From: Pontibacter harenae
GTDB taxonomy: Bacteria > Bacteroidota > Bacteroidia > Cytophagales > Hymenobacteraceae
Reading direction: 5' to 3'
Length of the DNA stretch: 64,000 nt
Assembly (NCBI RefSeq): GCF_020907245.1
Contig: NZ_JAJJWH010000002.1
Coordinates: 1 to 64,000, forward strand
In this document: positions 38,252 through 64,000 of the stretch, piece after piece
Position numbering within the stretch: the stretch's first letter is position 1
Layout: the number at the start of each line of letters is the position of its first letter
The notes under the pieces: model-generated
Told to the model about the DNA's origin: nothing
The model's input: the letters and a program-made list of their open reading frames with translations, nothing else
Database searches by the model: none
Translations under genes and position numbers: made by a program

Positions 38252-38289
38252 CAAAAGCGGCTCCTGCCATAAGAGAGGAGCCGCTTTTG
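38252..38289. terminator. Bidirectional terminator at the end of the 3-keto-sugar-like operon
   Basis: Perfect 14-base arms at 38252-38265 and 38276-38289, core AGCGGCTCCT, with CAAA/TTTG at the ends. It closes both the small secreted gene and the nine-gene minus-strand operon. Confidence 0.9.
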
Positions 38290-38304: not shown

Positions 38305-39186
38305 CTACAACAGGTTGTTTTTTACATAACTGCTGCTTTGCGAGATACTTTCATAAGGATCCATGGCAAAGTTTTCCTGCTCTACGAAAATTCGCTTCAC
38401 GCCAGAAACATCTGCCTGCTCAAATATTGGTTTATAATCGATTGTTCCGCTTCCTACTTCTGTGTTCAAGGTGCGGGCGGCTTTGTCCATGTCTTTTACA
38501 TGCCACATCACGTATCGGCCCACATTTTGCTTAAACATAGCGATAGGATCTTTTCCTGCTCTTACCACCCAGTATAAATCTAGTTCAAACTTTACTAGTT
38601 CGGGGTCTGTTTCAGAAAGCAATATGTCGTAACCAGTGGTGCCATTATGGTTCTGAAACTCAAAATCGTGGTTGTGGTAAGCCAGTTTCATGTTTCCCTC
38701 CTGGCACATTTGAGCCGCTCTGTTAAGCCTTTCAGCTACTTTTCTATAGTCGTCTGCGCTCTGGCGAAGTGGTTCGATAATGTAAGGCGCCACAATATAC
38801 TCCTGCCCTATAGCAGAACCACCGTCAATGTAAGCCTTGATAATGTCTTCGTTGCCGCTTCTGATAAATTCGTTAAAATCGTAATGTCCGCTTGATGATT
38901 TCAGTCCGTTGTCATCCAAAATCTGCTTGAAATCCTTTGGCGCCACCCCAAAGAAATGGCTTTCGGGAGAGTATCCATAAGTTTCAACATCTTTATATCC
39001 TGCCTCCGACACTTTAGCTAATACACCTTTTACATCCTTACCTATGTACTCCCTTAAGGTATAAAGCTGTAAACCAATTTCACCTGTACTGCCAGCCGAC
39101 TCACTACATCCGATAAGAGAAGGAGCTAAAAACAAACCAGCTGAAACTAATCCAGCCTGTTGTATAAATGATCGTCTTGTTGTCAT
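38305..39186 (-). CDS. Exported TIM-barrel sugar isomerase/epimerase-like lipoprotein
   Basis: A 293-residue xylose-isomerase-like barrel with a Tat-type lipoprotein signal (MTTRRSFIQQAGLVSAG, then SLIGC, Cys at about 27). Putative metal ligands are visible: Glu in VETYGYSP, His in YHNHDFEF (about 173), Asp in ELDLYWV, His in WHVKDMDKA and Glu in VEQENF. Similar proteins sit beside DUF1080 proteins in other Bacteroidota; one is described as a hydratase of the 3-keto-2-hydroxyglucal formed by a 3-keto-glucoside lyase (recalled, not checked). It is the last gene of the operon and its product probably works in the periplasm. Confidence 0.78.
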   Translation of the reverse strand: MTTRRSFIQQAGLVSAGLFLAPSLIGCSESAGSTGEIGLQLYTLREYIGKDVKGVLAKVSEAGYKDVETYGYSPESHFFGVAPKDFKQILDDNGLKSSSGHYDFNEFIRSGNEDIIKAYIDGGSAIGQEYIVAPYIIEPLRQSADDYRKVAERLNRAAQMCQEGNMKLAYHNHDFEFQNHNGTTGYDILLSETDPELVKFELDLYWVVRAGKDPIAMFKQNVGRYVMWHVKDMDKAARTLNTEVGSGTIDYKPIFEQADVSGVKRIFVEQENFAMDPYESISQSSSYVKNNLL

Positions 39187-39308
39187 TGTTTATATTTTGA
39201 TACGGTTTTATGTAGTAAACTTAAACTTTATGTAGAGCATGGTATTTTGAAAAGGTTAGCCATGGCTGTTGTTGAACTAAAACAGATCATGCAGTTTAGT
39301 CAGATTGA

Positions 39309-40193
39309 TCAGACATCACAAATTTGAACGGCTTGTCTGAATGAGGCAATTTTATCTTTATGTGCAGGCAGAAACTCGTGGGCAACATATCCTTTGAAGC
39401 CTGTTGCCAATATTGCTTTCATAATAGCAGGATAGTTTAACTCCTGCGTGTGGTCTATTTCACGACGACCTGGCACTCCAGCCGTGTGGTAATGCGCAAT
39501 GTAAGGATGATACTCCTGTATAGTACGGATCACATCCCCCTCATCAATTTGCATGTGGTAAATGTCGTACAGCAGCTTAAAGTTATCTGATCCTAATCTT
39601 TTAGCAAGTTCGGCTCCCCACTTTGTATGATTGCACTGGTAGTCGGGGTGGTTAACCTTACTGTTAAGCAGTTCCATCACGAGTACTACGTTATGCTTTT
39701 CGGCTAGCGGCATAATTTGCTTCAAGCCCTCCACGCAATTTCGCAGGCCTGTTTCATCGTCTTTGCCATTGCGGTTACCACTAAAACAAATCAAGTTTTG
39801 ATAGCCAGCCTTAGCTACCATCGGAATCATGTCAGTGTAATTCTTTATGAGTACTGCATGATGTTTGGGATCATTCCAGCCTTCACTAAGACCGATTTCA
39901 GCCCCATTACACATCGTGGAGACTAAACCATACTTCTGCAGTATAGGCCAGTCACTTGGCCCCACAAGATCTACCCCTACCATACCTAAATCTTTAGCGG
40001 CTTTACACACCTCCTCCACAGAAAGGTCATTTAGGCACCAACGGCAAACAGAATGATTGATGTTACCCTTCGGTTTGTATGCTTCAGACTGATTTTTAGA
40101 GCTAAAAGATGTTAAAAGCCCTGTAGTGGTAACGGCTGCAGCACTTGCTAGCACACTTTTCACAGCTGTTCTCCGATTATGTTTTTGCGCCAT
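39309..40193 (-). CDS. TIM-barrel, hydroxypyruvate-isomerase-like protein
   Basis: A 294-residue xylose-isomerase-like barrel of the Hyi type with a twin-Arg leader (HNRRTAVKSVLASAAAV, cleaved near residue 30), so probably exported folded. Putative metal ligands are the Glu in LVMELLNSK (about 160-175), Asp in LLYDIYHMQ, His in YHTAGVPGR and Glu in AHEFLP near the end. Its opening HSVCRWCLNDLSVEEVC matches hydroxypyruvate isomerase-like proteins. It lies 33 bases after the DUF1080 gene in the operon; isomerisation of a keto-sugar intermediate is the plausible role. Confidence 0.75.
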   Translation of the reverse strand: MAQKHNRRTAVKSVLASAAAVTTTGLLTSFSSKNQSEAYKPKGNINHSVCRWCLNDLSVEEVCKAAKDLGMVGVDLVGPSDWPILQKYGLVSTMCNGAEIGLSEGWNDPKHHAVLIKNYTDMIPMVAKAGYQNLICFSGNRNGKDDETGLRNCVEGLKQIMPLAEKHNVVLVMELLNSKVNHPDYQCNHTKWGAELAKRLGSDNFKLLYDIYHMQIDEGDVIRTIQEYHPYIAHYHTAGVPGRREIDHTQELNYPAIMKAILATGFKGYVAHEFLPAHKDKIASFRQAVQICDV

Positions 40194-40226
40194 AAAGCTA
40201 TTTTAAAATTTGTAGCACTTTCTACG

Positions 40227-40931
40227 CTAGAGCCTCTTAATCATGATGTTTTTAAACCACACGTCATCGCCGTGGTCTTGCAGGGCTATCTTACCTGTTT
40301 TATAAGTGCCAAAGTCTGGCATAGAGCTGAACTTACTTTCTGCCACCATCTTTTTCCAGTTATCGTCCCAAAGCGTTGTGGTTACTACCTTAGTACCATT
40401 TAGGTAAAGCTCAAGTAAGCCATTGTTGCTGATAATCTCAGCCTGGTTCCACTCTCCTGCTGGTTTTACTGTTTCTTCGCTGCTAGAAATTAAGTCATAC
40501 AAATCACCAGCGCGATGCTTAGGTATTTTAGCATCTGGATGACCTTCATTGTCCAACACCTGCATTTCCAGCCCCGTCTCCCAAGTTTGCTGATATTGCG
40601 CAGGTTCATCTTTCAAATAGAAGATGATGCCGCTATTGCCATTCTGCGAAATTTTCCAATCCAGTTTCAGGTGAAAATTCTCATAAGAATCATCAGTCAA
40701 AAGATCGCCACCCTCCTTTGCTGAAGCAGCGTCTAATCGAAGAACGCCATCTTCCACTTTCCAGGCTTCGCCAGCAGTGCTTTTCCCGTAGCTGTGCCAA
40801 CCAGTCAGTGATTTCCCATCAAACAAAGAAATCCAGTTACCTTGCGCAACAGCACTAGAAGCGATTATATTTTCTGGTTTGTCTGTTTCTGAACTCACTG
40901 TTGTTTTGTTACATGCTGAACCAGCCAACAT
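40227..40931 (-). CDS. DUF1080 protein (3-keto-glycoside hydrolase/lyase-like), start region frameshifted
   Basis: A beta-jelly-roll protein of the family named 3-keto-disaccharide hydrolase, recently described as including 3-keto-glucoside 1,2-lyases. Visible: SLFDGKSLTGWHSYGKS (about 34-50), DWKISQNGNSGIIFYL, the EMQVLDNEGHPDA block with DLYDLI, and the C-terminal KTGKIALQDHGDDVWFKNI, all family hallmarks. In the open frame the first ATG is at 40931 and gives only MLAGSACNK before the mature protein, which is half a lipoprotein signal. The missing half is encoded 46 bases upstream in another frame (next entry), so the export signal is broken. The gene lies three bases after the cytochrome c gene. 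Confidence 0.85.
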   Translation of the reverse strand: MLAGSACNKTTVSSETDKPENIIASSAVAQGNWISLFDGKSLTGWHSYGKSTAGEAWKVEDGVLRLDAASAKEGGDLLTDDSYENFHLKLDWKISQNGNSGIIFYLKDEPAQYQQTWETGLEMQVLDNEGHPDAKIPKHRAGDLYDLISSSEETVKPAGEWNQAEIISNNGLLELYLNGTKVVTTTLWDDNWKKMVAESKFSSMPDFGTYKTGKIALQDHGDDVWFKNIMIKRL

Positions 40932-40977
40932 AATGAATGGCTAGCACTACTGCAGGAAAAGCCCTTTTGCTGTGCAT
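40932..40977 (-). pseudogene. Out-of-frame signal-peptide start of the DUF1080 gene
   Basis: An ATG at 40977 (three bases after the cytochrome c stop) starts MHSKRAFPAVVLAI, a normal lipoprotein signal n-region and h-region, but it then runs out of frame and stops at 40909. At the junction the minus strand reads GC-CATT-CATT-ATG: a direct CATT duplication (40932-40939). Removing one copy joins the two frames as MHSKRAFPAVVLAIMLAGSAC, that is, a full lipoprotein signal. A one-base change would do the same. This is a recent slippage, a sequencing error or an on/off switch. Confidence 0.7.
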
Positions 40978-40980
40978 GAA

Positions 40981-41412
40981 TTATTGATTCAAAGACAAAA
41001 TGTACTTAGCCATTTCGTTAGCATCTTCCTTACTAAGATCTGGATGCGGAGACATAGGTATTTCGCCCCAAACGCCGCTACCACCTTTAATAATTTTCTG
41101 TGCCAGGTAGTCTACATTCTGATCATTTAGCTCGTATTTTTCAGCAACCTCGTTATAGCCTGGACCAACTAACCTACCTTCAGCTTTGTGGCAAGAAAGG
41201 CAATCCGAATTAGCTATTAGCTTTTCACCTTTTTCGTAAGGATTTTGCTCGGCATCTACCACAGGCTCAGGCTGCTGTTGTTCAGGAGCAGTTGCTGTTG
41301 TCTCTGTGGCCCCACCGCCTTCGTATACATCTTCATACTCAGAAGAATTACTATTGCCACCGCATGCAGCCATAAATGCCACACATGCTGCAGCCAGGAA
41401 TATTTTTTTCAT
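40981..41412 (-). CDS. Lipoprotein cytochrome c (class I)
   Basis: A 143-residue protein with a lipoprotein signal (MKKIFLAAACVAFMAAC) and a Glu/Gln/Pro/Thr-rich spacer (about 22-58) that puts the haem domain away from the membrane. The haem motif is DCLSCHK (about 70-76). The sixth ligand is likely the Met in EIPMSPHPDL. It is an electron-carrier domain of about 80 residues. Beside a GMC flavoprotein and a gluconate-dehydrogenase subunit-3 homologue it most likely accepts electrons from the flavoprotein, the arrangement of the periplasmic LacABC sugar 3-dehydrogenase type. Confidence 0.9.
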   Translation of the reverse strand: MKKIFLAAACVAFMAACGGNSNSSEYEDVYEGGGATETTATAPEQQQPEPVVDAEQNPYEKGEKLIANSDCLSCHKAEGRLVGPGYNEVAEKYELNDQNVDYLAQKIIKGGSGVWGEIPMSPHPDLSKEDANEMAKYILSLNQ

Positions 41413-41435
41413 GTCAGTTTTATCATTTATAAGTT

Positions 41436-42491
41436 TTACTTTATGCCTAGTATGGCTTTATTGAATGCTTCGTCGGCACCTGCAGAAGCAAAGTCGTCAA
41501 ATGCTTTTTCTGTCACTCTAATAATGTGGTCCTGGATGAACTGAGCACCTTCACGGGCACCATCTTCGGGATGCTTAAGGGCACACTCCCACTCCAACAC
41601 TGCCCATCCTTTAAAATCATAAGCTGTAAGCTTACTAAATATAGACTTGAAATCAACCTGGCCATCGCCTAAAGAACGGAAGCGACCTGCACGATCTACC
41701 CAGTTTTGGTAGCCGCCGTATACGCCCTGCTTCCCAGATGGATTGAACTCCGCATCCTTTACATGGAACATTTTAATGCGCTCATGATAATGATCGATAT
41801 AGGAAAGGTAATCGAGGCACTGCAGCACAAAGTGAGACGGATCATACAGCAGGCAGGCACGCGGATGGTTATTTACCTTCTCCAGGAACATCTCGTACGT
41901 CACGCCATCGTGTAAATCCTCTCCTGGGTGAATCTCATAGCACAGGTCTACGCCAGACTCATCGAAAGCATTAAGTATAGGCAACCAACGGTCAGCTAAT
42001 TCTTTGAAGCCAGTATCTACCAAACCAGCAGGACGCTGTGGCCATGGATAAACCGTGTGCCATAAAAGGGCTCCGCTAAAAGTGGCATGAGCATTCAATC
42101 CTAAGTTCTGCGATGCCTTAGCCGCATACTTTAGCTGCTGCACAGCCCACTCTGTTCTGGCTTTAGGGTTATTGTGGTACTGCTCAGGGGCAAAACCATC
42201 AAAAAGTTTATCGTAAGCAGGGTTTACAGCAACAAGTTGGCCGTGCAGGTGTGAGGATAGTTCGGTAATTTGAAGCCCCAGGCCTTCCACCATACCCTTT
42301 ATTTCATCGGCATAAGTTTTGCTTTCCGCAGCTTTCTGAACATCAAAGTAATTGCTGTTCCAGGTCGGAATCTGTACTCCTTTGTAGCCAAGGCTTTTGG
42401 CCCATTTGCAAATGTTTTCTAGTGTATCAAACGGAGCCTGGTCGCCCAGAAACTGAGCCAGGAAAATAGCTGGTCCTTGTATAGTTGTCAT
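41436..42491 (-). CDS. TIM-barrel sugar isomerase/epimerase-like protein (cytoplasmic)
   Basis: A 351-residue xylose-isomerase-like barrel without a signal peptide, so the member of the trio that works in the cytoplasm. Candidate metal ligands: Glu in CYEIHPGEDLHDG (about 180-190), Asp in LLYDPSHFVLQ, His in MFHVKDAEFN and Glu in VLEWECALK. HPGEDLHDG and the SHLHGQLVAVNP loop are strongly conserved in sugar-phosphate-isomerase-like proteins seen with Gfo/Idh genes. It lies eight bases downstream of the Gfo/Idh gene (same strand), so the two are probably co-translated. The sugar is not determined. Confidence 0.8.
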   Translation of the reverse strand: MTTIQGPAIFLAQFLGDQAPFDTLENICKWAKSLGYKGVQIPTWNSNYFDVQKAAESKTYADEIKGMVEGLGLQITELSSHLHGQLVAVNPAYDKLFDGFAPEQYHNNPKARTEWAVQQLKYAAKASQNLGLNAHATFSGALLWHTVYPWPQRPAGLVDTGFKELADRWLPILNAFDESGVDLCYEIHPGEDLHDGVTYEMFLEKVNNHPRACLLYDPSHFVLQCLDYLSYIDHYHERIKMFHVKDAEFNPSGKQGVYGGYQNWVDRAGRFRSLGDGQVDFKSIFSKLTAYDFKGWAVLEWECALKHPEDGAREGAQFIQDHIIRVTEKAFDDFASAGADEAFNKAILGIK

Positions 42492-42499
42492 AGTTTAAA

Positions 42500-43657
42500 T
42501 TAGATTTTAAAGTCGATCCATTTTTGTTCGGATTTGCCAGAGGCAATCACGTTTTCGATAAAGGCCATGCCTCGCACGCCATCCTGTATTCCTGGGTAGT
42601 CCTGCCACTCAGGCTGCGCTACGATGCCTTCTAGTTTGGCCTGCACGCACAGTGCAAAATTGCGGTACAGGTTTGCAAAAGCTTCTAAGTAACCTTCAGG
42701 GTGACCAGCAGGTGTACGGGTGTTATGCTGAGCATAGCTACTATTGTAACCTCCGCCTGTACGTAAAATCTCTGCAGGACGATCGAGCCATTTGCATAAA
42801 AGCGTATTGGCATCCTCCTGTTTCCATTCCAAGCCTCCCTCTTCGCCGTACACTCTTATCTTGACGTTATTTTCTTCGCCAGCCGCTATCTGCGTTGCAA
42901 ACAGCACACCAGTAGCCCCGTTGTTAAACTTCAGGAAAGAAGCGCCGTCATCATCCAGTTTACGTCCTTCTACTACTATGTTGATATCGGCACAAAGCTG
43001 CGTTACTTCCAGCCCTGTCACATACTCCGCCAGGTTGAAGGCATGCGTACCGATATCGCCCATAGCACCTGCGATACCGCTTTGGCTCGGGTCAGTTCTC
43101 CAGGAGGCTTGCTTATTATCGCCACCCTCTTCAAAAGTGCTCAGCCAGCCTTGCGGATACTCCACATAAACTTTGCGAATTTTACCGAGCTTACCAGAGG
43201 CTACTAGCTGTTTTGCCTCTTTCACCATTGGGTAGCCAGTGTAGGTGTGCGTAAGGCAGAATAAATTGCCTGTTCTTTCCACTACGTTTTGCAGTTCAAG
43301 GGCTTCCTCCAAAGAGAAAGTCATGGGTTTGTCTAATACTACATGGAAGCCGCTTTCTAGAGCCAGTTTAGTGGGCTCGAAGTGAACGTGGTTTGGCGTA
43401 ACGATACTGATAACCTGTACCCGCTCATCCACAGGAAGCTGCTGCTCTTTCTCAAACAATTCCTGATAAGAGGCATAGACCCTCTCTGGCTTTAGCCCCA
43501 GCAGTTCGCCGCTGGCCTTAGACTTTTCTGGATTGCTACTGAAGGCGCCGCAAACAAGGTCGTAAGCACCATCAATTTGTGCGGCAATGCGATGCACAGC
43601 GCCAATAAATGCGCCTTGGCCACCGCCAATCATGCCTAATCTTAGTTTTTTGTTCAT
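42500..43657 (-). CDS. Gfo/Idh/MocA oxidoreductase (cytoplasmic)
   Basis: An NAD(P)-dependent sugar oxidoreductase of 385 residues. The frame is open to 43723 but MNKKLRLGMIGGGQG at 43657 fits the usual start: the Rossmann GGGxG lies a few residues in. Further marks are SIVTPNHVHFEPTKLALESGFHVVLDKPMTF (Lys-Pro of the EKP motif in DKP form) and the WRTDPSQSGIAGAMGDIGTHAFNLAEYVTG block with the catalytic Asp/His. No signal peptide is present, in contrast to the other Gfo/Idh member of the operon. It probably reduces or oxidises a sugar intermediate after import. Confidence 0.87.
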   Translation of the reverse strand: MNKKLRLGMIGGGQGAFIGAVHRIAAQIDGAYDLVCGAFSSNPEKSKASGELLGLKPERVYASYQELFEKEQQLPVDERVQVISIVTPNHVHFEPTKLALESGFHVVLDKPMTFSLEEALELQNVVERTGNLFCLTHTYTGYPMVKEAKQLVASGKLGKIRKVYVEYPQGWLSTFEEGGDNKQASWRTDPSQSGIAGAMGDIGTHAFNLAEYVTGLEVTQLCADINIVVEGRKLDDDGASFLKFNNGATGVLFATQIAAGEENNVKIRVYGEEGGLEWKQEDANTLLCKWLDRPAEILRTGGGYNSSYAQHNTRTPAGHPEGYLEAFANLYRNFALCVQAKLEGIVAQPEWQDYPGIQDGVRGMAFIENVIASGKSEQKWIDFKI

Positions 43658-43773
43658 AGTAAAGTGTTCATCAGAATATTGATTTTTGAAAATAGGATTA
43701 TGCTTTAACATTCCCAAACTCAAAACCAGATTCTGTTGGTGTAACAGTAATTAGGGTTTAAAAGATTTTCTTC

Positions 43774-44349
43774 TTAAGAAGTGGCCCATGCCCTGTCTCC
43801 TTTTTTGTAGGGCATGCTACCGTCGTAGCGGCCTGGTACTGCCACGTGCCGAAGCGCCTGAGTAGCCCCAACTTCAGAGGTGAAGAAGCCAAGCAAGGTC
43901 AATTCTTTCATCATTCGGAAGTAGTGGCTAGGTTCCTCTGCTTTTTTTGTATGCATGTACGCCTTCTGCTCTTGATCTAAGCTGGTGAGGAGCTCTTTGC
44001 GTTGCTTAGCATCGCATTTTAAGAAGCTTTTGCCGTACTTTTCTTCACAAGCCTCCTCTAGTTTGCCTAAGCCCTCTGTGAATACACGTTGCTCTGCAGG
44101 AGTGTAGCAATCCTTAACCATAACGGCCATAAATGGCCCCACCTCAGCGGCTTTGGCACTAGGTGTGTTTGTTTCAGGAAGTATAGTGTCGGCTATTTCA
44201 TCTAACATTAAAACCTGCTCCTGCTTGAAAAGATCTTCAACATTTACCTGCTGCCTGTTGGGCGTACAAGCCACCAGTAAGTCGGCTCCTACAATAGTAC
44301 CGCCCAGTAACCAGGCAACTGCCGACATGGCTTCTCTTCTATTCATCAT
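43774..44349 (-). CDS. Gluconate 2-dehydrogenase subunit 3-like protein (Tat lipoprotein)
   Basis: The small subunit that escorts a GMC flavoprotein out of the cell. The 191-residue product has a Tat motif (MMNRREAMSAVAWLLGG) and a lipobox (DLLVAC, Cys at about 29). The mature domain has the family features: LDEIADTILPETNTPSAKAAEVGPFM (about 50-75), CYTPAEQRVFTEGL and the C-terminal RYDGSMPYKKGDRAW. Because the GMC protein has no signal of its own, this subunit probably carries it through the Tat pore. Confidence 0.9.
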   Translation of the reverse strand: MMNRREAMSAVAWLLGGTIVGADLLVACTPNRQQVNVEDLFKQEQVLMLDEIADTILPETNTPSAKAAEVGPFMAVMVKDCYTPAEQRVFTEGLGKLEEACEEKYGKSFLKCDAKQRKELLTSLDQEQKAYMHTKKAEEPSHYFRMMKELTLLGFFTSEVGATQALRHVAVPGRYDGSMPYKKGDRAWATS

Positions 44350-44486
44350 AATAGTATACAGTTTAACAATAGCTGCAATTCATGGTTTAAAACTGCTGCA
44401 TCGGCTTTCCTTTAAAGCTTAGATGCATAATGGAACAGTTAAGTAATTAAGTATTATCCTTAGTTTCAGAACTTGATAAATTAAAC

Positions 44487-45959
44487 TTAAACTCCTAAGC
44501 TCCAGCCACTGCGGTAGTCACGTTTCACAAACTGGTTTACTTCGTCTAAGTTTGTTACCCGCATGTTTTCGTTATCCCAAAGCAGTTTTACATAACGGCC
44601 AGGGTAGTCAAAACCTTCTCCGTTTTCTCTCGCTTTCCGAATATCAAAACCACGAATAGCCAGATTTGCCATCAGCAAAGCTTCAGTCAGCGGACCAGCT
44701 ATTTCGAAAGGAGAACTGACCTCCATGTTGCCATGCCCTGCTATACAAGCCTCTACCCATTGCGCATAATGTCCTTCGGCACCACCTGGTACGCGCACCA
44801 CTTGGTGCTTTTTCTTAACTTTAAATTCTTCTGTGCGAGCAGTGGGCAATAGTCTAGGATTTGCGCCATAGGTACTGGCCATCATCTTACCTTTTGTACC
44901 GATAAATAACGTACCGTTGCCGCCATCACCAAACTTTTCGTTGGGGCCAAGTTCTTCTGGTCGTTCAGGCTGAATGCCTCCGTCCATCCAATGCACCGTA
45001 ACAGGGCCTTTGGTTTTATCTGTTTCAGGAAAAGTTAACGTAACGTGACTTGAGGGTGGGCATGCTTCAGGGAAATAGCCGCGTTTAAACTCATCTACAT
45101 ACACACTTCCAACACTCGCTTGCACATCGGTGGCATATTTTAAACCAAGTACACTAAATGGTGCTTCCAATAGATGGCAGCCCATATCTCCTAGCGCGCC
45201 TGTGCCGTAGTCCCACCAGCCGCGCCAATTAAACGGCACCAGCTTGTCTACATACTCTTTATAAGGAGCTGTTCCTAACCATAAATCCCAATCCAGCTCT
45301 TGCGGAACGCTGCCTTTAGAGGTTGGCCAGGCAATGCCTTGTGGCCATACAGGGCGGTCGGTCCAGGCGTAAATGGTATGTACATCGCCGATGGCCTTGG
45401 AGCCATACCATTCCTTCAGTTGTCGCACCCCGTCGCCAGAAGCGCCTTGATTACCCATTTGGGTTACAACTTTGTAGCGTTTAGCAGCCTCGGTCAGCAT
45501 TCTGGCTTCGTAGATGTCGTGCGTCAGCGGCTTTTGTACATACACGTGTTTGCCCAACTGCATAGCAGCCATGGTTTGTACGGCATGGTTATGGTCTGGC
45601 GTAGAAACTGAAACAGCATCAAAATGCTTGGCTTCCTTCTCAAACATTTCGCGCCAGTCTTTGTAATATTTTGCTTTCGGGAATTTGGCTCTTGTAGCTG
45701 CTGCTCTACGATCATCTACATCGCAGAGAAAGGCAATATCGGCTTTACCTGATTCAAAAAAACTGTTTAAGTCAGTAGCGCCTTTGCCACCTACGCCTAT
45801 ACCAGCCACGGTTAACCTGTCGCTGGGAGCGAGAAAACCTTTGCCTCCCAGCACATGGCGTGGCACAATCATAAAGCCTGCAGCTGCCAACGCACCCGTT
45901 TTAAGGAAGGTTCTCCTGGAGTTGCTGTTGGTGTTTAGAGTCGGTTTTATTTCAGACAT
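44487..45959 (-). CDS. Gfo/Idh/MocA oxidoreductase with Tat signal
   Basis: A 490-residue Gfo/Idh protein with a long twin-arginine leader (SNSRRTFLKTGALAAAGF, cleaved near 38), as in the exported Bacteroidota members of this family. The Rossmann motif is GIGVGGKG (about 54-61), followed by VSTPDHNHAVQTMAAMQLGKHVYVQKPLTHD with the EKP-like QKP motif, and MGCHLLEAPF with the catalytic His. It lies 33 bases downstream of the GMC gene. An exported member would have to bring its nucleotide with it, folded and loaded, as in glucose-fructose oxidoreductase. Confidence 0.88.
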   Translation of the reverse strand: MSEIKPTLNTNSNSRRTFLKTGALAAAGFMIVPRHVLGGKGFLAPSDRLTVAGIGVGGKGATDLNSFFESGKADIAFLCDVDDRRAAATRAKFPKAKYYKDWREMFEKEAKHFDAVSVSTPDHNHAVQTMAAMQLGKHVYVQKPLTHDIYEARMLTEAAKRYKVVTQMGNQGASGDGVRQLKEWYGSKAIGDVHTIYAWTDRPVWPQGIAWPTSKGSVPQELDWDLWLGTAPYKEYVDKLVPFNWRGWWDYGTGALGDMGCHLLEAPFSVLGLKYATDVQASVGSVYVDEFKRGYFPEACPPSSHVTLTFPETDKTKGPVTVHWMDGGIQPERPEELGPNEKFGDGGNGTLFIGTKGKMMASTYGANPRLLPTARTEEFKVKKKHQVVRVPGGAEGHYAQWVEACIAGHGNMEVSSPFEIAGPLTEALLMANLAIRGFDIRKARENGEGFDYPGRYVKLLWDNENMRVTNLDEVNQFVKRDYRSGWSLGV

Positions 45960-45992
45960 ACTTGAATGTTGCTATCGGAATAACAGGTAAGG

Positions 45993-47672
45993 CTATACAT
46001 TCATTTTTTTCATTTCACTTACGACATGGTCTACCGCACGGGCTGTTAGGGCCATGTACGTCAGCGATGGGTTCTGGCAAGCCGCAGAGGTCATACAAGC
46101 ACCATCTGTTACATACACGTTCTTCGCATCCCACACCTGGTTCCACTCATTCAGGACAGAGGTTTTTGGATCTCTTCCCATTCGCGCTGTTCCCATTTCA
46201 TGAATACCCATACCCATGGCATACTCAGAATCATGAGCTTTCACATCTTTCAAACCAGCTATCTCCAACATTTCTCTGGCATCTTCCATCATGTCTTTGC
46301 GCATCTTCTTCTCATTTTCCTTTATCTCGCAATCTATCGCCAGCACCGGAAGCCCCCACTTATCTTTTTTCTCTTTGTCTAAAGTTACTTTATTATCATG
46401 GTAAGGTAGCGTCTCACCAAATCCCGTAATGCCCAACGCCCAATCTCCTGGCTCGGTTAAAGCGTCTTTGAAGTCTGCGCCTATGTTCATTTCGGCAATT
46501 TCTCTGCTCCACCCATCACGACTGGCCCTACCCTGGTAGCCAAAACCGCGTATATAACCGCGCTTCTCACCGTTCATGTTTCGGAAACGCGGTATATATA
46601 TGCCATTCGGACGGCGGCCATAGTAGTACTTATCCTCATAGCCCTCGGCTATACCTGAAGCGCCTACTCTAAAGTGGTGGTCCATCAGGTTATGCCCTAG
46701 TTCACCGCTGCTGCTGCCTAAGCCTCCTTCCCACACATCAGTGGCCGAGTTCATCAAAATCCAGGTGGTGTTGAGCGTAGATGCATTCAAGAACACTACT
46801 TTAGCAAAGTACTCGTAAGTCTGGTTTGTCTCAGCATCAAGCACCTCCACGCCTTTGGCTTTTTTGGTGTCTTTATCATAGATAACTTTTGTTACTATAG
46901 AATGCGGACGAACCGTTAAGTTACCTGTAGCCAAAGCCGCTGGCAATGTGGAGGATTGTGTACTAAAATAGCCTCCGAACGGACAGCCAAGGCGGCATTT
47001 GTTGCGGTATTGGCAGTTTGTTCTGCTATGAATAGGCGAAGTAATGTTTGCAACACGGCCAATAATCATGTGCCTGTTGCCTTTGTAGTGCGATTTTAAG
47101 CGGGCAGCCACATCTTTCTCAACGCAATTCAAATCCATAGGCGGCATAAAATCACCATCGGGCAAATGCGCTATACCTTCTTTTGAGCCGCTTATACCAG
47201 CAAAACGCTCCACATGGCCGTACCACTTTTCCAGGTCCTTGTAACGGATAGGCCAATCCACGGCCACACCATCTTTGGCGTTTGCATCAAAATCTAAATC
47301 GCTGAGCCTGTAGCTCTGGCGCCCCCACATAAGCGAACGGCCACCCACATGGTAACCACGGTACCAGTCGAAACGCTTTGTTTCTGTATAAGGGCTTTCC
47401 TTTTCATTTACCCAAAAATCCAGGTTGTTTTCAGATAAAGCATAGTCTCTTTTTAAGACAGGATAATCTGCAATCATTTGTTGGGTACGGCCACCTCTAT
47501 GGGCGTATTCCCAAGGCTCTTTAGTGGCATTCACATAGTCTTTTACATGTTCTATGTTACGGCCTCGCTCCAACATAATGGTTTTTAAGCCTTTCTCTGT
47601 TAATCCTTTAGCAGCCCAGCCTCCAGAGATACCCGAACCTACAACAATAGCATCATAAACATTCTCAGCCAT
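45993..47672 (-). CDS. GMC oxidoreductase (sugar/glycoside dehydrogenase flavoprotein)
   Basis: An FAD-dependent enzyme of 559 residues, first gene of the nine-gene operon. FAD site: VVGSGISGGWAAKGLTEKG with the Glu of MLERG (about 10-36). The C-terminal GMC motif carries the catalytic His/Asn in MGIHEMGTARMG (about 488-499) and QNPSLTYMALTARA. A Cys-rich loop (CQYRNKCRLGCPFGG, about 225-239) is a mark of the gluconate/sugar dehydrogenase subset. No signal peptide is seen; export with the subunit-3 partner is the expected mechanism. Together with cytochrome c this resembles the LacA-type large subunit that oxidises sugars at C3. Confidence 0.92.
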   Translation of the reverse strand: MAENVYDAIVVGSGISGGWAAKGLTEKGLKTIMLERGRNIEHVKDYVNATKEPWEYAHRGGRTQQMIADYPVLKRDYALSENNLDFWVNEKESPYTETKRFDWYRGYHVGGRSLMWGRQSYRLSDLDFDANAKDGVAVDWPIRYKDLEKWYGHVERFAGISGSKEGIAHLPDGDFMPPMDLNCVEKDVAARLKSHYKGNRHMIIGRVANITSPIHSRTNCQYRNKCRLGCPFGGYFSTQSSTLPAALATGNLTVRPHSIVTKVIYDKDTKKAKGVEVLDAETNQTYEYFAKVVFLNASTLNTTWILMNSATDVWEGGLGSSSGELGHNLMDHHFRVGASGIAEGYEDKYYYGRRPNGIYIPRFRNMNGEKRGYIRGFGYQGRASRDGWSREIAEMNIGADFKDALTEPGDWALGITGFGETLPYHDNKVTLDKEKKDKWGLPVLAIDCEIKENEKKMRKDMMEDAREMLEIAGLKDVKAHDSEYAMGMGIHEMGTARMGRDPKTSVLNEWNQVWDAKNVYVTDGACMTSAACQNPSLTYMALTARAVDHVVSEMKKMNV

Positions 47673-48118: not shown

Positions 48119-48157
48119 AAGAAAGGGCCGCAGCTATATTAGCCACGGCCCTTTCTT
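48119..48157 (-). terminator. Terminator after the zinc alcohol dehydrogenase gene
   Basis: Perfect 12-base arms AAGAAAGGGCCG (48119-48130) and its complement (48146-48157) around a 15-base loop; on the minus strand it runs into a T-rich tail. Confidence 0.86.
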
Positions 48158-48177: not shown

Positions 48178-49221
48178 CTACAGTGTTTCCATGTCGATCA
48201 CGAACCTATATTTCACATCGCTGCGCATCATGCGGTCATAGGCTGTATTTATTTCATCCATATTGATTACTTCCACATCAGACATAATATTATGCTCGGA
48301 ACAGAAGTCCAGCATTTCCTGCGTCTCAGCTATACCTCCTATCAAAGAACCCGCCAAGCGACGGCGCTTACCAATCAGGCTGAAGCCTGCTACTGGCGAC
48401 GGCTCTGGTGGTGCTCCTAACAAGATCATGGTGCCATCACGCTTCAGCATGGAAAGGAACAGGTTATAATCGTGCGGAGCAGACACCGTGTTGATAATAA
48501 AGTCGAAGGTGTTATACAGGCTTTTTACTGTTTCTTTGTCTTTGGAAACAGCGAAGTTATGCGCTCCTAAATCACGGGCATCTTTTTCCTTATCAGGCGA
48601 TGTGCTTAATACAGTTACATCGGCACCTTTGGCAGCAGCAATCTTAACGGCCATGTGGCCAAGGCCGCCTAAACCAACTATACCTACCTTGTGTCCTTGG
48701 CCAATTTTCCATTGCATTATAGGAGAATAAGTGGTGATGCCTGCGCACAGCAATGGTGCCACCCGCGACAGATCCAGATTCTCTGGTACTTTTAAAGTAT
48801 AATTCTCGTCTACCACAATCTGCGAAGAATAACCGCCGTAGGTTTTAGTTGTGCCGTCTCGTTCGGTGCCATTATAGGTGCCCACCATGCCTTTTTCGCA
48901 ATACTGCTCCAGCCCTTCCTGGCAGCTGGGGCAAGTACGACAGGAATCTACGAAGCAACCTACGCCTGCCAGATCGCCCTCTTTAAATTTGGTCACCTTG
49001 CTTCCTACTTTTGTAACAGTGCCTACAATTTCGTGCCCAGGTACAAGCGGGTACATTGTTCCACCCCACTCGTTGCGCACCTGATGCAGGTCAGAGTGAC
49101 ATACGCCACAGTAGCGGATAGCAATCTGCACATCATGCTCCCCCACTTCACGACGGTCCAGGTTAAACGGTGCAAGCGGATCGGTAGCATTATATGCTGC
49201 ATAAGCTTTAGCTTCAGCCAT
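48178..49221 (-). CDS. Zinc-dependent alcohol dehydrogenase (YahK/CAD-like)
   Basis: An NADP-type medium-chain dehydrogenase of 347 residues. Catalytic zinc: Cys and His in CGVCHSDLHQVRNEWG (about 38-53) and the HE in PGHEIVG; structural zinc: CRTCPSCQEGLEQYC (about 92-107). The Rossmann motif is GLGGLGHMAVKIA (about 177-189); STSPDKEKDARDLGA follows, where Ser rather than Asp after the second strand suggests NADP. It resembles E. coli YahK, an aldehyde reductase. It is separated by a terminator from the 3-keto-sugar-like operon, so its role there is not implied. Confidence 0.93.
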   Translation of the reverse strand: MAEAKAYAAYNATDPLAPFNLDRREVGEHDVQIAIRYCGVCHSDLHQVRNEWGGTMYPLVPGHEIVGTVTKVGSKVTKFKEGDLAGVGCFVDSCRTCPSCQEGLEQYCEKGMVGTYNGTERDGTTKTYGGYSSQIVVDENYTLKVPENLDLSRVAPLLCAGITTYSPIMQWKIGQGHKVGIVGLGGLGHMAVKIAAAKGADVTVLSTSPDKEKDARDLGAHNFAVSKDKETVKSLYNTFDFIINTVSAPHDYNLFLSMLKRDGTMILLGAPPEPSPVAGFSLIGKRRRLAGSLIGGIAETQEMLDFCSEHNIMSDVEVINMDEINTAYDRMMRSDVKYRFVIDMETL

Positions 49222-62277: not shown

Positions 62278-64000
62278 CTATTGGTGCTCTTTCTTATAAA
62301 CAGCCACTGAAAGCCTTATTTTAAAGTATTCGTACTGCTCTCCTAGCGCCTCAAACAGATCTTTCAGTTTTGCATCCGCCCCAAGTTTTGCAATAGCTTT
62401 GGCTATAGCATTGTATTCAGCCTTCGTCAGGTAGTTATTCAGCGATACATTATACCCCTGCTCATATAGGGTGGCAATATGAGAAAAGATAGTTACCGGG
62501 TTCAGGTTTCGCTGCTGGGCAATCTGCTCTACCGTATGGCCTTGCTGCAGTGCCTCAAACGTAACCAGGTGGGTTGCTCCCTTGATCTTATTCCCTTTCG
62601 ATTGCTCTTCCGTCATAAAGCTCATAATCTCGTTGATGAACTCATGGCCGTAGCGTTCGTACTTCTGCGACCCCACACCAGAAATAGCCAGCATCGCAAT
62701 TCGGTTTGTTGGTTTTTCTGCCGCCATTTCCTGTAGTGTGCTATCGGTAAACACTACATAAGGCGGCACGTTGGCTTCGTCGGCAATGCGTTTGCGCAGC
62801 TGGCGTAGGCGCTCGAACAGCGCATCTTTTACCAGCTCCCGCTTCGGACGTGAACGCACAGTTGCCTCCGCTTCCTGCTGCTTCACTTCCTCAAACTTCA
62901 CAAGCTCTACCTTTTGTCCCTCAAACAGCACCTGCTTACTTTGCTCTGTCAGCTTTAAGGTATAGTTCTGGTCGTAGGCCAGCTCCACTAGCCCCGCATT
63001 CAGCATCTGGTGCAGGTAACGGTTCCAGTCCATGGTACTTATGTCGCGACCTGCGCCGTAGGTCTTGATCTTATCGTAGCCAGCAGACATAACCTGGCTG
63101 TTGCGGGAACCACGTAGCACATCCACTAACAAAGTCATATTCACATTTTCCTGCGTACGGGCAATGGCAGAAAGGGCCTTTTGCACAAGCAAAGTACCAT
63201 CGAAGGTGCTGGGAGGGTTTCGGCAAATGTCGCAGTTGCCACAGTCTTTTGTTAAAGTTTCGCCAAAATACTGCAGCAAAATGCGCCTGCGGCAGGCGGC
63301 CGCTTCGGCAAACTGTTGCATGCGCTCCAGCTTCACCAATTGCAACTCCGACTGGTTTTTAGCAGCATCATTGTCCTGCAGCATGTTGCGCAGGTTCATC
63401 ACGTCGGCAAAAGAATAAAACAACAGCGCATCCGACTGCGCACCGTCACGCCCTGCCCTTCCTATTTCCTGGTAATAACTTTCGATGTTCTTGGGCAGAT
63501 TGTAATGTATTACCCAACGCACATTCGATTTATCGATACCCATACCGAAGGCAATGGTAGCACACACTATCTGCACATCGTCGCGCAGAAAAGCCTCCTG
63601 TGCCTTTGCCCGCTGCTGCGGTGACATACCCGCGTGATAATAGGTAGCACTAAAACCACTTGTCTTCAACTTATTCGCTATAGATTCGGTGGCATTACGG
63701 CTAAGGCAATAAATTATGCCTGGCTGCTTATGGTGCCGCTCCAGAAACTCTGTTATCTTATTAAAACGGTCTCGGCCTGGCTTTACCATCAGGTTTATGT
63801 TCGGCCTATCAAACGAGGAAATAAATACCTTTGGATTCTGGAGATACAGCTGCTCCTGCATATCCTTTTGTGTAAGCTTATCGGCTGTGGCAGTAAGTGC
63901 TACAACGGGAATCTGCGGAAACTGCTGTTTCAGTGCCTTTAGCTGTGTATACTCAGGTCTAAAATCGTGGCCCCAAGCAGAGATACAGTGTGCCTCGTCT
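62278..64000 (-). CDS. recQ: RecQ-type DNA helicase, C-terminal part (runs off the window)
   Basis: A 3'-5' DNA helicase. An ATG at 63861 is internal: the frame stays open to the window edge and reads [17 protein letters not shown] (motif II, Walker B) and VALTATA (motif III) before it. Then follow motif IV ([12 protein letters not shown]), V and VI ([33 protein letters not shown]), the RQC zinc site (CRRRIL, CGNCDIC), an RQC winged-helix part (about 63200-62870), the HRDC domain ([21 protein letters not shown]) and a further C-terminal helix-turn-helix region. The N-terminal motifs 0-I lie beyond 64000. Confidence 0.95.

Follow-up and report, generated by a model that had tools for sequence, protein, structure and literature searches.

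Gene content and organization of the locus

The first 64,000 nucleotides of contig NZ_JAJJWH010000002.1 of Pontibacter harenae (assembly GCF_020907245.1; hereafter the window) contain, at 38305-47672 on the minus strand, an interval filled by nine same-strand open reading frames (ORFs). It very probably represents a glycoside-utilization operon of a Bacteroidota type, in which sugars would be processed by a non-hydrolytic 3-keto route of oxidation, elimination, hydration and reduction, described recently as another way to release sugars from glycosides than that of the usual glycosidases. The source assembly comprises 4.85 Mb in 112 contigs and is 87.65% complete. The nine ORFs are all present in the order and with the families given in a preliminary description of this DNA, and Pfam agrees for each of them. 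In order of transcription, and followed by the flanking features, they are (Tat, twin-arginine translocation):

45993-47672, minus strand: ORF1, GMC flavoprotein (Pfam GMC_oxred_N/C)
44487-45959, minus strand: ORF2, Tat-signal Gfo/Idh oxidoreductase, BT_2158-like (Pfam Gfo/Idh)
43774-44349, minus strand: ORF3, Gluconate_2-dh3, Tat-signal small (hitchhiker) subunit with a lipobox-like cysteine (PF13618, 138.9 bits)
42500-43657, minus strand: ORF4, Gfo/Idh protein without signal peptide (Pfam Gfo/Idh)
41436-42491, minus strand: ORF5, 2-hydroxy-3-keto-glucal hydratase-like barrel without signal peptide (Pfam AP_endonuc_2; 8ro4)
40981-41412, minus strand: ORF6, lipoprotein mono-heme cytochrome c (PF00034)
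40227-40931, minus strand: ORF7, DUF1080 / 3-keto-disaccharide hydrolase family protein (PF06439, 186.7 bits)
39309-40193, minus strand: ORF8 (TIMa), Tat-signal hydroxypyruvate-isomerase/ketose-epimerase-like barrel (Pfam AP_endonuc_2)
38305-39186, minus strand: ORF9 (TIMb), Tat-signal O-glycoside beta-eliminase-like barrel (Pfam AP_endonuc_2; 8bvk)
38252-38289, minus strand: terminator-like hairpin at the operon end (-25.7 kcal/mol, z -6.0)
48119-48157, minus strand: terminator-like hairpin at the upstream boundary, just 3' of the alcohol dehydrogenase gene (z -7.9; listed by the terminator scan)
48178-49221: upstream alcohol dehydrogenase gene

The gaps between consecutive genes are 33, 137, 116, 8, 23, 49, 33 and 122 bp, taking the ATG at 43657 as the start of ORF4, for which the ORF list gives an extended frame with a TTG start at 43723. 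The shared terminator proposed earlier for the operon end corresponds to the hairpin at 38252-38289, which was not equalled by any of 200 shuffled sequences; the consensus terminator scan, with 10 hits in the region against 10.5 expected by chance, did not list this hairpin. Matches to sigma-70-type promoters were also no more frequent in the region than expected by chance (16 against 16.8). The spacing of the genes together with the flanking hairpins suggests that the nine genes form a single putative transcription unit. The operon was described as having no SusC/SusD genes, and indeed no such pair was found among the nine ORFs, the upstream alcohol dehydrogenase and ten further window ORFs that were scanned, the remaining window ORFs not being scanned.

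A predicted hydratase and a likely reductase

ORF5 aligned with PDB entry 8RO4 ("2-hydroxy-3-keto-glucal hydratase") over residues 1-350 with a score of 593.8 bits and 244 of 350 positions identical (~70%), and is predicted to be a hydratase of 2-hydroxy-3-keto-glucal, in agreement with the earlier proposal that an isomerase-like barrel hydrates the glucal. Its neighbour ORF4, whose best PDB match was 3v5n (387.5 bits), is likely a 3-keto-glucose reductase. Among the 74 best Bacteroidota loci (see below), 56 have an ORF4 relative no more than 150 bp away from the hydratase. In Agrobacterium tumefaciens, preliminary evidence given in passages of PMC10628242 points to AtHYD as a hydratase and to the Gfo protein of the same operon as an enzyme that reduces 3-keto-glucose. 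Against the levoglucosan dehydrogenase model (NF052479), ORF4 scored 110, well below the NCBIfam equivalog cut-off of 650.

A putative respiratory C3 dehydrogenase

ORF1 and ORF3 both scored above the Pfam gathering thresholds (GMC and Gluconate_2-dh3, respectively), and ORF1 aligned nearly end to end with the large subunits of fructose and glucose dehydrogenases, with a coinciding cysteine triad. This C-x5-C-x3-C motif (C220, C226 and C230) was found in 66 of 66 sequences compared, the window included, and its spacing matches that of the 3Fe-4S ligands Cys212, Cys218 and Cys222 of BcGDH, as described in PMC6719666. No signal peptide was seen in ORF1. None of the 77 GMC relatives carries a twin-arginine (RR) motif, but 51 of the 71 relatives of the small subunit ORF3 do, which agrees with the prediction of hitchhiker export; these and the other signal counts given here are rough, as start codons were picked by length and some signals were shortened. 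A lipobox-like sequence was found in 54 of 71 ORF3 relatives. For ORF6, all 71 sequences in the comparison, that of the window among them, contain the CxxCH motif.

These features suggest that ORF1 is likely the catalytic subunit of a LacA/GlycDH-like C3 dehydrogenase, and that ORFs 1, 3 and 6 together resemble a dehydrogenase of the flavin/3Fe-4S/cytochrome c kind whose carrier subunit has a Tat signal; the mono-heme lipoprotein ORF6 would be its natural electron acceptor. A GMC protein, subunit 3 and cytochrome c had been recognized before as the layout of a sugar C3 dehydrogenase, an assignment with which Pfam, the cysteine spacing and CxxCH are all consistent. A mono-heme c protein that takes electrons from the flavin adenine dinucleotide (FAD) glucoside 3-dehydrogenase has been described in Rhizobium radiobacter, in the part of PMC9915066 that deals with it. 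The FAD glucose dehydrogenase of Burkholderia and the fructose dehydrogenase complexes also combine a GMC protein carrying 3Fe-4S-type cysteines with a hitchhiker subunit and a heme c acceptor; however, the similarity amounts to only ~106 bits over 550 residues, and a small mono-heme lipoprotein stands in the window operon in place of their three-heme subunit. The oxidized sugar position would also differ between those enzymes and the one predicted here.

In addition, the operon encodes ORF2, a second oxidoreductase that matched BT_2158_fam (NF058561) with 490.7 bits and the PDB entries 8tdf (E 3.3e-97) and 8tdh (E 6.1e-94), and whose relatives carry the RR motif in 39 of 40 cases.

Two candidate cleavage enzymes

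ORF9 matched PDB entry 8bvk (E 2e-19), deposited as AtOGE, the O-glycoside beta-eliminase of A. tumefaciens. According to the passages on its structure in PMC10628242, His132, Asp163, His189 and Glu233 of AtOGE are metal ligands in one subunit, Glu161 is among those of the other subunit, and His134 is catalytic. In our alignment, H171, H173, E201, D203, H229 and E269 of ORF9 correspond to H132, H134, E161, D163, H189 and E233 of AtOGE, a match made by way of alphaproteobacterial homologues (H125, H127, E154, D156, H182 and E227 in L066) whose numbering runs 6-7 behind that of AtOGE. Counting ORFs of 220-420 residues, all six residues are kept in 42 of 42 ORF9 relatives with at least 40% identity, and the position of H173 is His in all 72 homologues, including 30 with lower identity; among these 30, six have Gln at the E161 position and one each has a gap at H189 and at E233. 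The RR motif was found in 58 of 72 ORF9 relatives. Taken together, the residues suggest that ORF9 is likely an eliminase with the metal site and the catalytic His of AtOGE.

ORF7 exceeded the curated cut-off of PF06439 (26.8) far, with 186.7 bits. In PMC9007349, BT2157, which has this domain, is presented as a 3-ketotrehalose hydrolase, and a DUF1080 protein is proposed as the 3'-ketolactose hydrolase of Caulobacter. The score fits the earlier suggestion that ORF7, like other DUF1080 proteins, would act on 3-keto-glycosides. The ORF opens at MLAGSAC with two in-frame stops just upstream, and a signal-peptide-like start at 40977 (MHSKRAFPAVV...; 40909-40977), giving MHSKRAFPAVVLAIHYVGWFSM, lies in a different frame. 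Four of the six closest relatives begin with a lipoprotein-like signal, and the other two were shortened by the chosen start. The break in the signal of ORF7 may be real or an assembly error.

ORF8, a putatively exported barrel

The label hydroxypyruvate-isomerase-like for ORF8 comes from its NCBIfam match to TIGR03234 (100.3), not from PDB titles; the score is below the equivalog cut-off of 353.45 for hydroxypyruvate isomerase. Its fold neighbours include YcjR 3-keto-D-glucoside 4-epimerase (6wn6) and the barrels 3ngf and 1k77, with 16-22% identity, from which ORF8 differs by its Tat signal. ORF8 also lacks the catalytic His of AtOGE-type eliminases: the column of the ORF9 catalytic H173 holds S178 in three MAFFT modes, in all of which 47 relatives of ORF8 have Ser and one has Gly at this column (n=48). 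The ORF8 and ORF9 families are too divergent to be compared by BLASTP. ORF8 would probably isomerize or epimerize 3-keto sugars. The three isomerase-type enzymes of the preliminary description can be told apart as a predicted hydratase, a likely eliminase and an isomerase/epimerase-like barrel.

A paralogue of ORF8 (58%) occurs in the same genome at a second locus (L156; G000:C56, 9338-19002), together with a Gfo/Idh-like protein, another barrel and ThuA/DUF7133 proteins.

Distribution of the operon in Bacteroidota

To place the operon among relatives, contigs were scanned with the hydratase as query, which gave at least 592 confirmed relatives, of which the best 80 were kept (74 from Bacteroidota and 6 from Proteobacteria); in addition, 15 loci were taken from the 17 same-genus genomes that carry the hydratase. 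Neighbourhood counts depend on identity thresholds that we chose. All nine genes were found in 10 of the 15 same-genus loci, which argues for a gene order kept beyond chance, and hydratase and GMC protein were together in 13 of 15. The complete set was not seen in any of 5 loci from the family's other genera or of 6 proteobacterial loci, but occurred in 9 of the 74 Bacteroidota loci (5 of 47 with full flanks). Partial versions are frequent: near the hydratase in the best 74 Bacteroidota loci, 27 of which have short flanks, we found the cytochrome 61 times, ORF8 50, the GMC protein 47, ORF9 43, DUF1080 42, a PF03825-type major facilitator superfamily (MFS) gene 35 and the Tat-signal Gfo 23 times. 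Many loci of Hymenobacter and Mucilaginibacter lack the DUF1080 protein of the window type, and several of these have a relative with 23-26% identity in its place.

Among 120 genomes of the same family, the hydratase was present in 64, the GMC protein in 71, ORF8 in 69 and the Tat-signal Gfo in 60. Hydratase and GMC protein strongly co-occurred (63 genomes with both, 1 with the hydratase only, 8 with the GMC protein only and 48 with neither; Fisher test, 7e-24), and so did ORF8 and the GMC protein (69 with both, 0 and 2 with a single one, 49 with neither). GMC presence was called at E 1e-60, so that G008, a weak match (E 4e-68), and the g3 genomes, with best matches of 63-68% identity, count as present. 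G102, in which the hydratase match amounts to a stop-containing fragment of 40 residues, was excluded from the Fisher tests, leaving 64 of 120.

The comparison of gene order with other Bacteroidota that had been recommended does not support the supposed rarity of the combination, as the operon recurs in the phylum, whole or in part, and clusters of LacABC and DUF1080 from Bacteroidetes are in print (PMC9007349, in the passages that mention them). The operon is common among the relatives of this strain, and exemplifies a pathway that is already known, in a conserved Bacteroidota layout. Its distinctive features are the two unrelated lyase families, a cytoplasmic half that can sit elsewhere and the exported barrel ORF8.

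Several variants were observed. The operons L160 (G105) and L161 (G081) lack the hydratase and the Tat-signal Gfo and have an ORF of 374-377 amino acids just upstream of the GMC gene, which in L160 is a PF01261 barrel and a possible replacement. In PLSDB, 309 plasmid records had a hydratase match at E 1e-100, with one from Bacteroidota, a Hymenobacter plasmid, among the 25 listed. On the Hymenobacter volaticus plasmid NZ_CP095062.1 (L162), most of the operon is present with genes for GH65 and SusD close by, a hint of disaccharide substrates and of transfer. On plasmid p4 of Azospirillum argentinense (L164), the hydratase and Gfo genes are accompanied by xylA and by genes for a sugar ABC transporter and a ROK regulator, and none in the part displayed bears the name GMC.

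Proposed pathway and alternative explanations

Based on gene content, conservation, co-occurrence, residues and fold, we propose the following reactions, substrate and locations. A periplasmic GMC protein, exported by the Tat-signal subunit 3, would oxidize C3 of a glucosyl unit, and electrons would pass from FAD through the 3Fe-4S cluster to the lipoprotein cytochrome c. The exported barrel ORF9, the DUF1080 protein ORF7 or both would then eliminate the aglycone or second sugar to give 2-hydroxy-3-keto-glucal or 3-keto-glucose. This keto product would enter the cytoplasm, in relatives probably through the operon's MFS symporter and here through a carrier encoded elsewhere, where ORF5 would add water and ORF4 would reduce 3-keto-glucose to glucose. 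A further periplasmic C3 oxidoreductase, of NAD(P) type, may be provided by ORF2, and ORF8 would probably act as an isomerase or epimerase of 3-keto sugars. A pathway of oxidation, elimination and keto-sugar processing had been suggested before, and the 8RO4 match, the AtOGE residues, PF06439 and the 3Fe-4S-spaced cysteine triad, together with the co-occurrence of hydratase and GMC protein, all point to it.

Among the closest known systems is that of A. tumefaciens, in which a putative operon unites GlycDH, AtOGE, AtHYD and a Gfo (PMC10628242, in the passages on this locus). As in the window, it joins a GMC dehydrogenase, an eliminase barrel, a hydratase barrel and a Gfo reductase, the hydratase is highly alike and the eliminase residues are kept. 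In contrast, the eliminase-like barrel of the window has a Tat signal, whereas four alphaproteobacterial homologues (L066, L068, L082 and L083) begin directly with the barrel (the frame of L082 is open further upstream), and the window operon adds the DUF1080 protein, the cytochrome c, the Tat-signal Gfo/Idh and the third barrel. The Caulobacter lactose cluster, which has counterparts in Pedobacter, Indibacter and Algoriphagus, likewise has a LacABC-type dehydrogenase with a DUF1080 gene nearby, is proposed to be periplasmic and is noted to have members in Bacteroidetes. Both lacABC and this DUF1080 gene are important to Caulobacter in using lactose; a hydratase and an eliminase barrel are not discussed in these passages (PMC9007349). 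Lastly, ORF2 resembles BT_2158_fam and ORF7 has the domain of BT2157 of Bacteroides thetaiotaomicron. The window operon differs from this type by its putative respiratory GMC/cytochrome enzyme, which is not known from B. thetaiotaomicron.

Some observations weigh against the 3-keto route. The score of ORF2 against the BT_2158_fam glycoside 3-dehydrogenase model is below the NCBIfam equivalog cut-off of 750. ORF9 shares no more than 25-29% of its residues with the alphaproteobacterial homologues and scores higher against 8tcd, 8tcs and 8tct than against 8bvk. PF06439 also includes an endo-xanthanase/lichenase, and the Pedobacter GW460 DUF1080 mutants described had no lactose phenotype (both in passages of PMC9007349). 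Furthermore, 8 of the 71 genomes that have a GMC match do so without the hydratase, which is thus not indispensable. The two halves of the operon could be functionally separate, with a periplasmic half (GMC protein, subunit 3, cytochrome c, DUF1080 protein and barrels) that only harvests electrons or splits disaccharides outside the cytoplasm, and a cytoplasmic pair of hydratase and reductase that acts on some other sugar taken up by the cell, for example an anhydrosugar. The pair can indeed lie apart from the periplasmic half, since G006, from another genus of the family, has the GMC protein, Tat-signal Gfo, subunit 3, DUF1080 and both barrels at L159 and the Gfo and hydratase at L140; the operons of G081 and G105 without hydratase and the Azospirillum plasmid would also fit such a division. 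We consider it quite unlikely, given the strong co-occurrence of hydratase and GMC protein across genomes, their joint presence at 13 of the 15 same-genus loci and the joining of the four functions in the A. tumefaciens operon (PMC10628242). It is very improbable that the likeness to 3-keto-glycoside enzymes reaches only the superfamily level and that another polyol, inositol or keto-sugar is processed: the barrels and Gfo/Idh proteins also hit models for inositol enzymes (iolE, iolG) and for hydroxypyruvate isomerase, but all far under the curated cut-offs, while ORF5 is ~70% identical to 8RO4 over 350 residues, PF06439 is far above its cut-off and the pathway set is complete in one place.

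A further point against the 3-keto route in this strain is the absence from the window operon (40193-40227) of the PF03825-type MFS gene, which is present in 11 of the 15 same-genus loci and lies between the DUF1080 gene and ORF8 in 9 of the 10 complete ones (PF03825 was shown for L064). No PF03825 symporter was found anywhere in the assembly, in a search whose control detected it in 4 of 14 known genomes. Together with the out-of-frame signal start of ORF7, this could point to a decayed copy, with DUF1080 export lost by a frame break, the transporter deleted and a partial pathway left. This is unlikely, as the remaining eight ORFs are open and full-length with respect to their families, and the symporter is likewise missing from L134 and L137, two loci of the same genus in which the greater part of the operon is present. 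In addition, an MFS gene at C2 of the assembly, 37% identical to another type of carrier found near these loci, may substitute as carrier. Both anomalies, which the preliminary description does not mention, may also be assembly effects, because the assembly is incomplete and fragmented, with sequence errors or gaps possible.

Within the 3-keto route, the two candidate lyase families may differ in the glycosides that they cleave. AtOGE splits 3'-keto-cellobiose but not 3'-keto-maltose, as stated in the corresponding passage of PMC10628242. Since the latter is left uncut, an alpha-specific partner would make sense. DUF1080 proteins could be this partner. It is conceivable, although doubtful, that two unrelated lyases, both exported, divide the work by anomer, the AtOGE-like barrel taking beta- and the DUF1080 protein alpha-3-keto-glucosides, while ORF8 as an exported 3-keto-sugar epimerase pools epimeric keto-sugars. 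Glycosides would then be cleaved in the periplasm, and the cytoplasm would house the hydration and reduction. If so, the operon would provide a broad, anomer-blind deglycosylation with direct electron input to the respiratory chain. Independently of this, the operon would represent the oxidation-elimination route as a conserved Bacteroidota unit in which two lyase families occur next to each other, and would be a source of enzymes for 3-keto-glycoside chemistry.

Neighbouring genes

In the same-genus loci L130 and L138, a relative (84% and 80%, respectively) of the upstream alcohol dehydrogenase of the window sits downstream of ORF9, and this dehydrogenase may consequently share the function of the operon. 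Near the window edge lies a RecQ-like ORF (62278-63861), for which no N-terminal DEAD domain was reported and which carries Helicase_C, zinc, RQC and HRDC domains.

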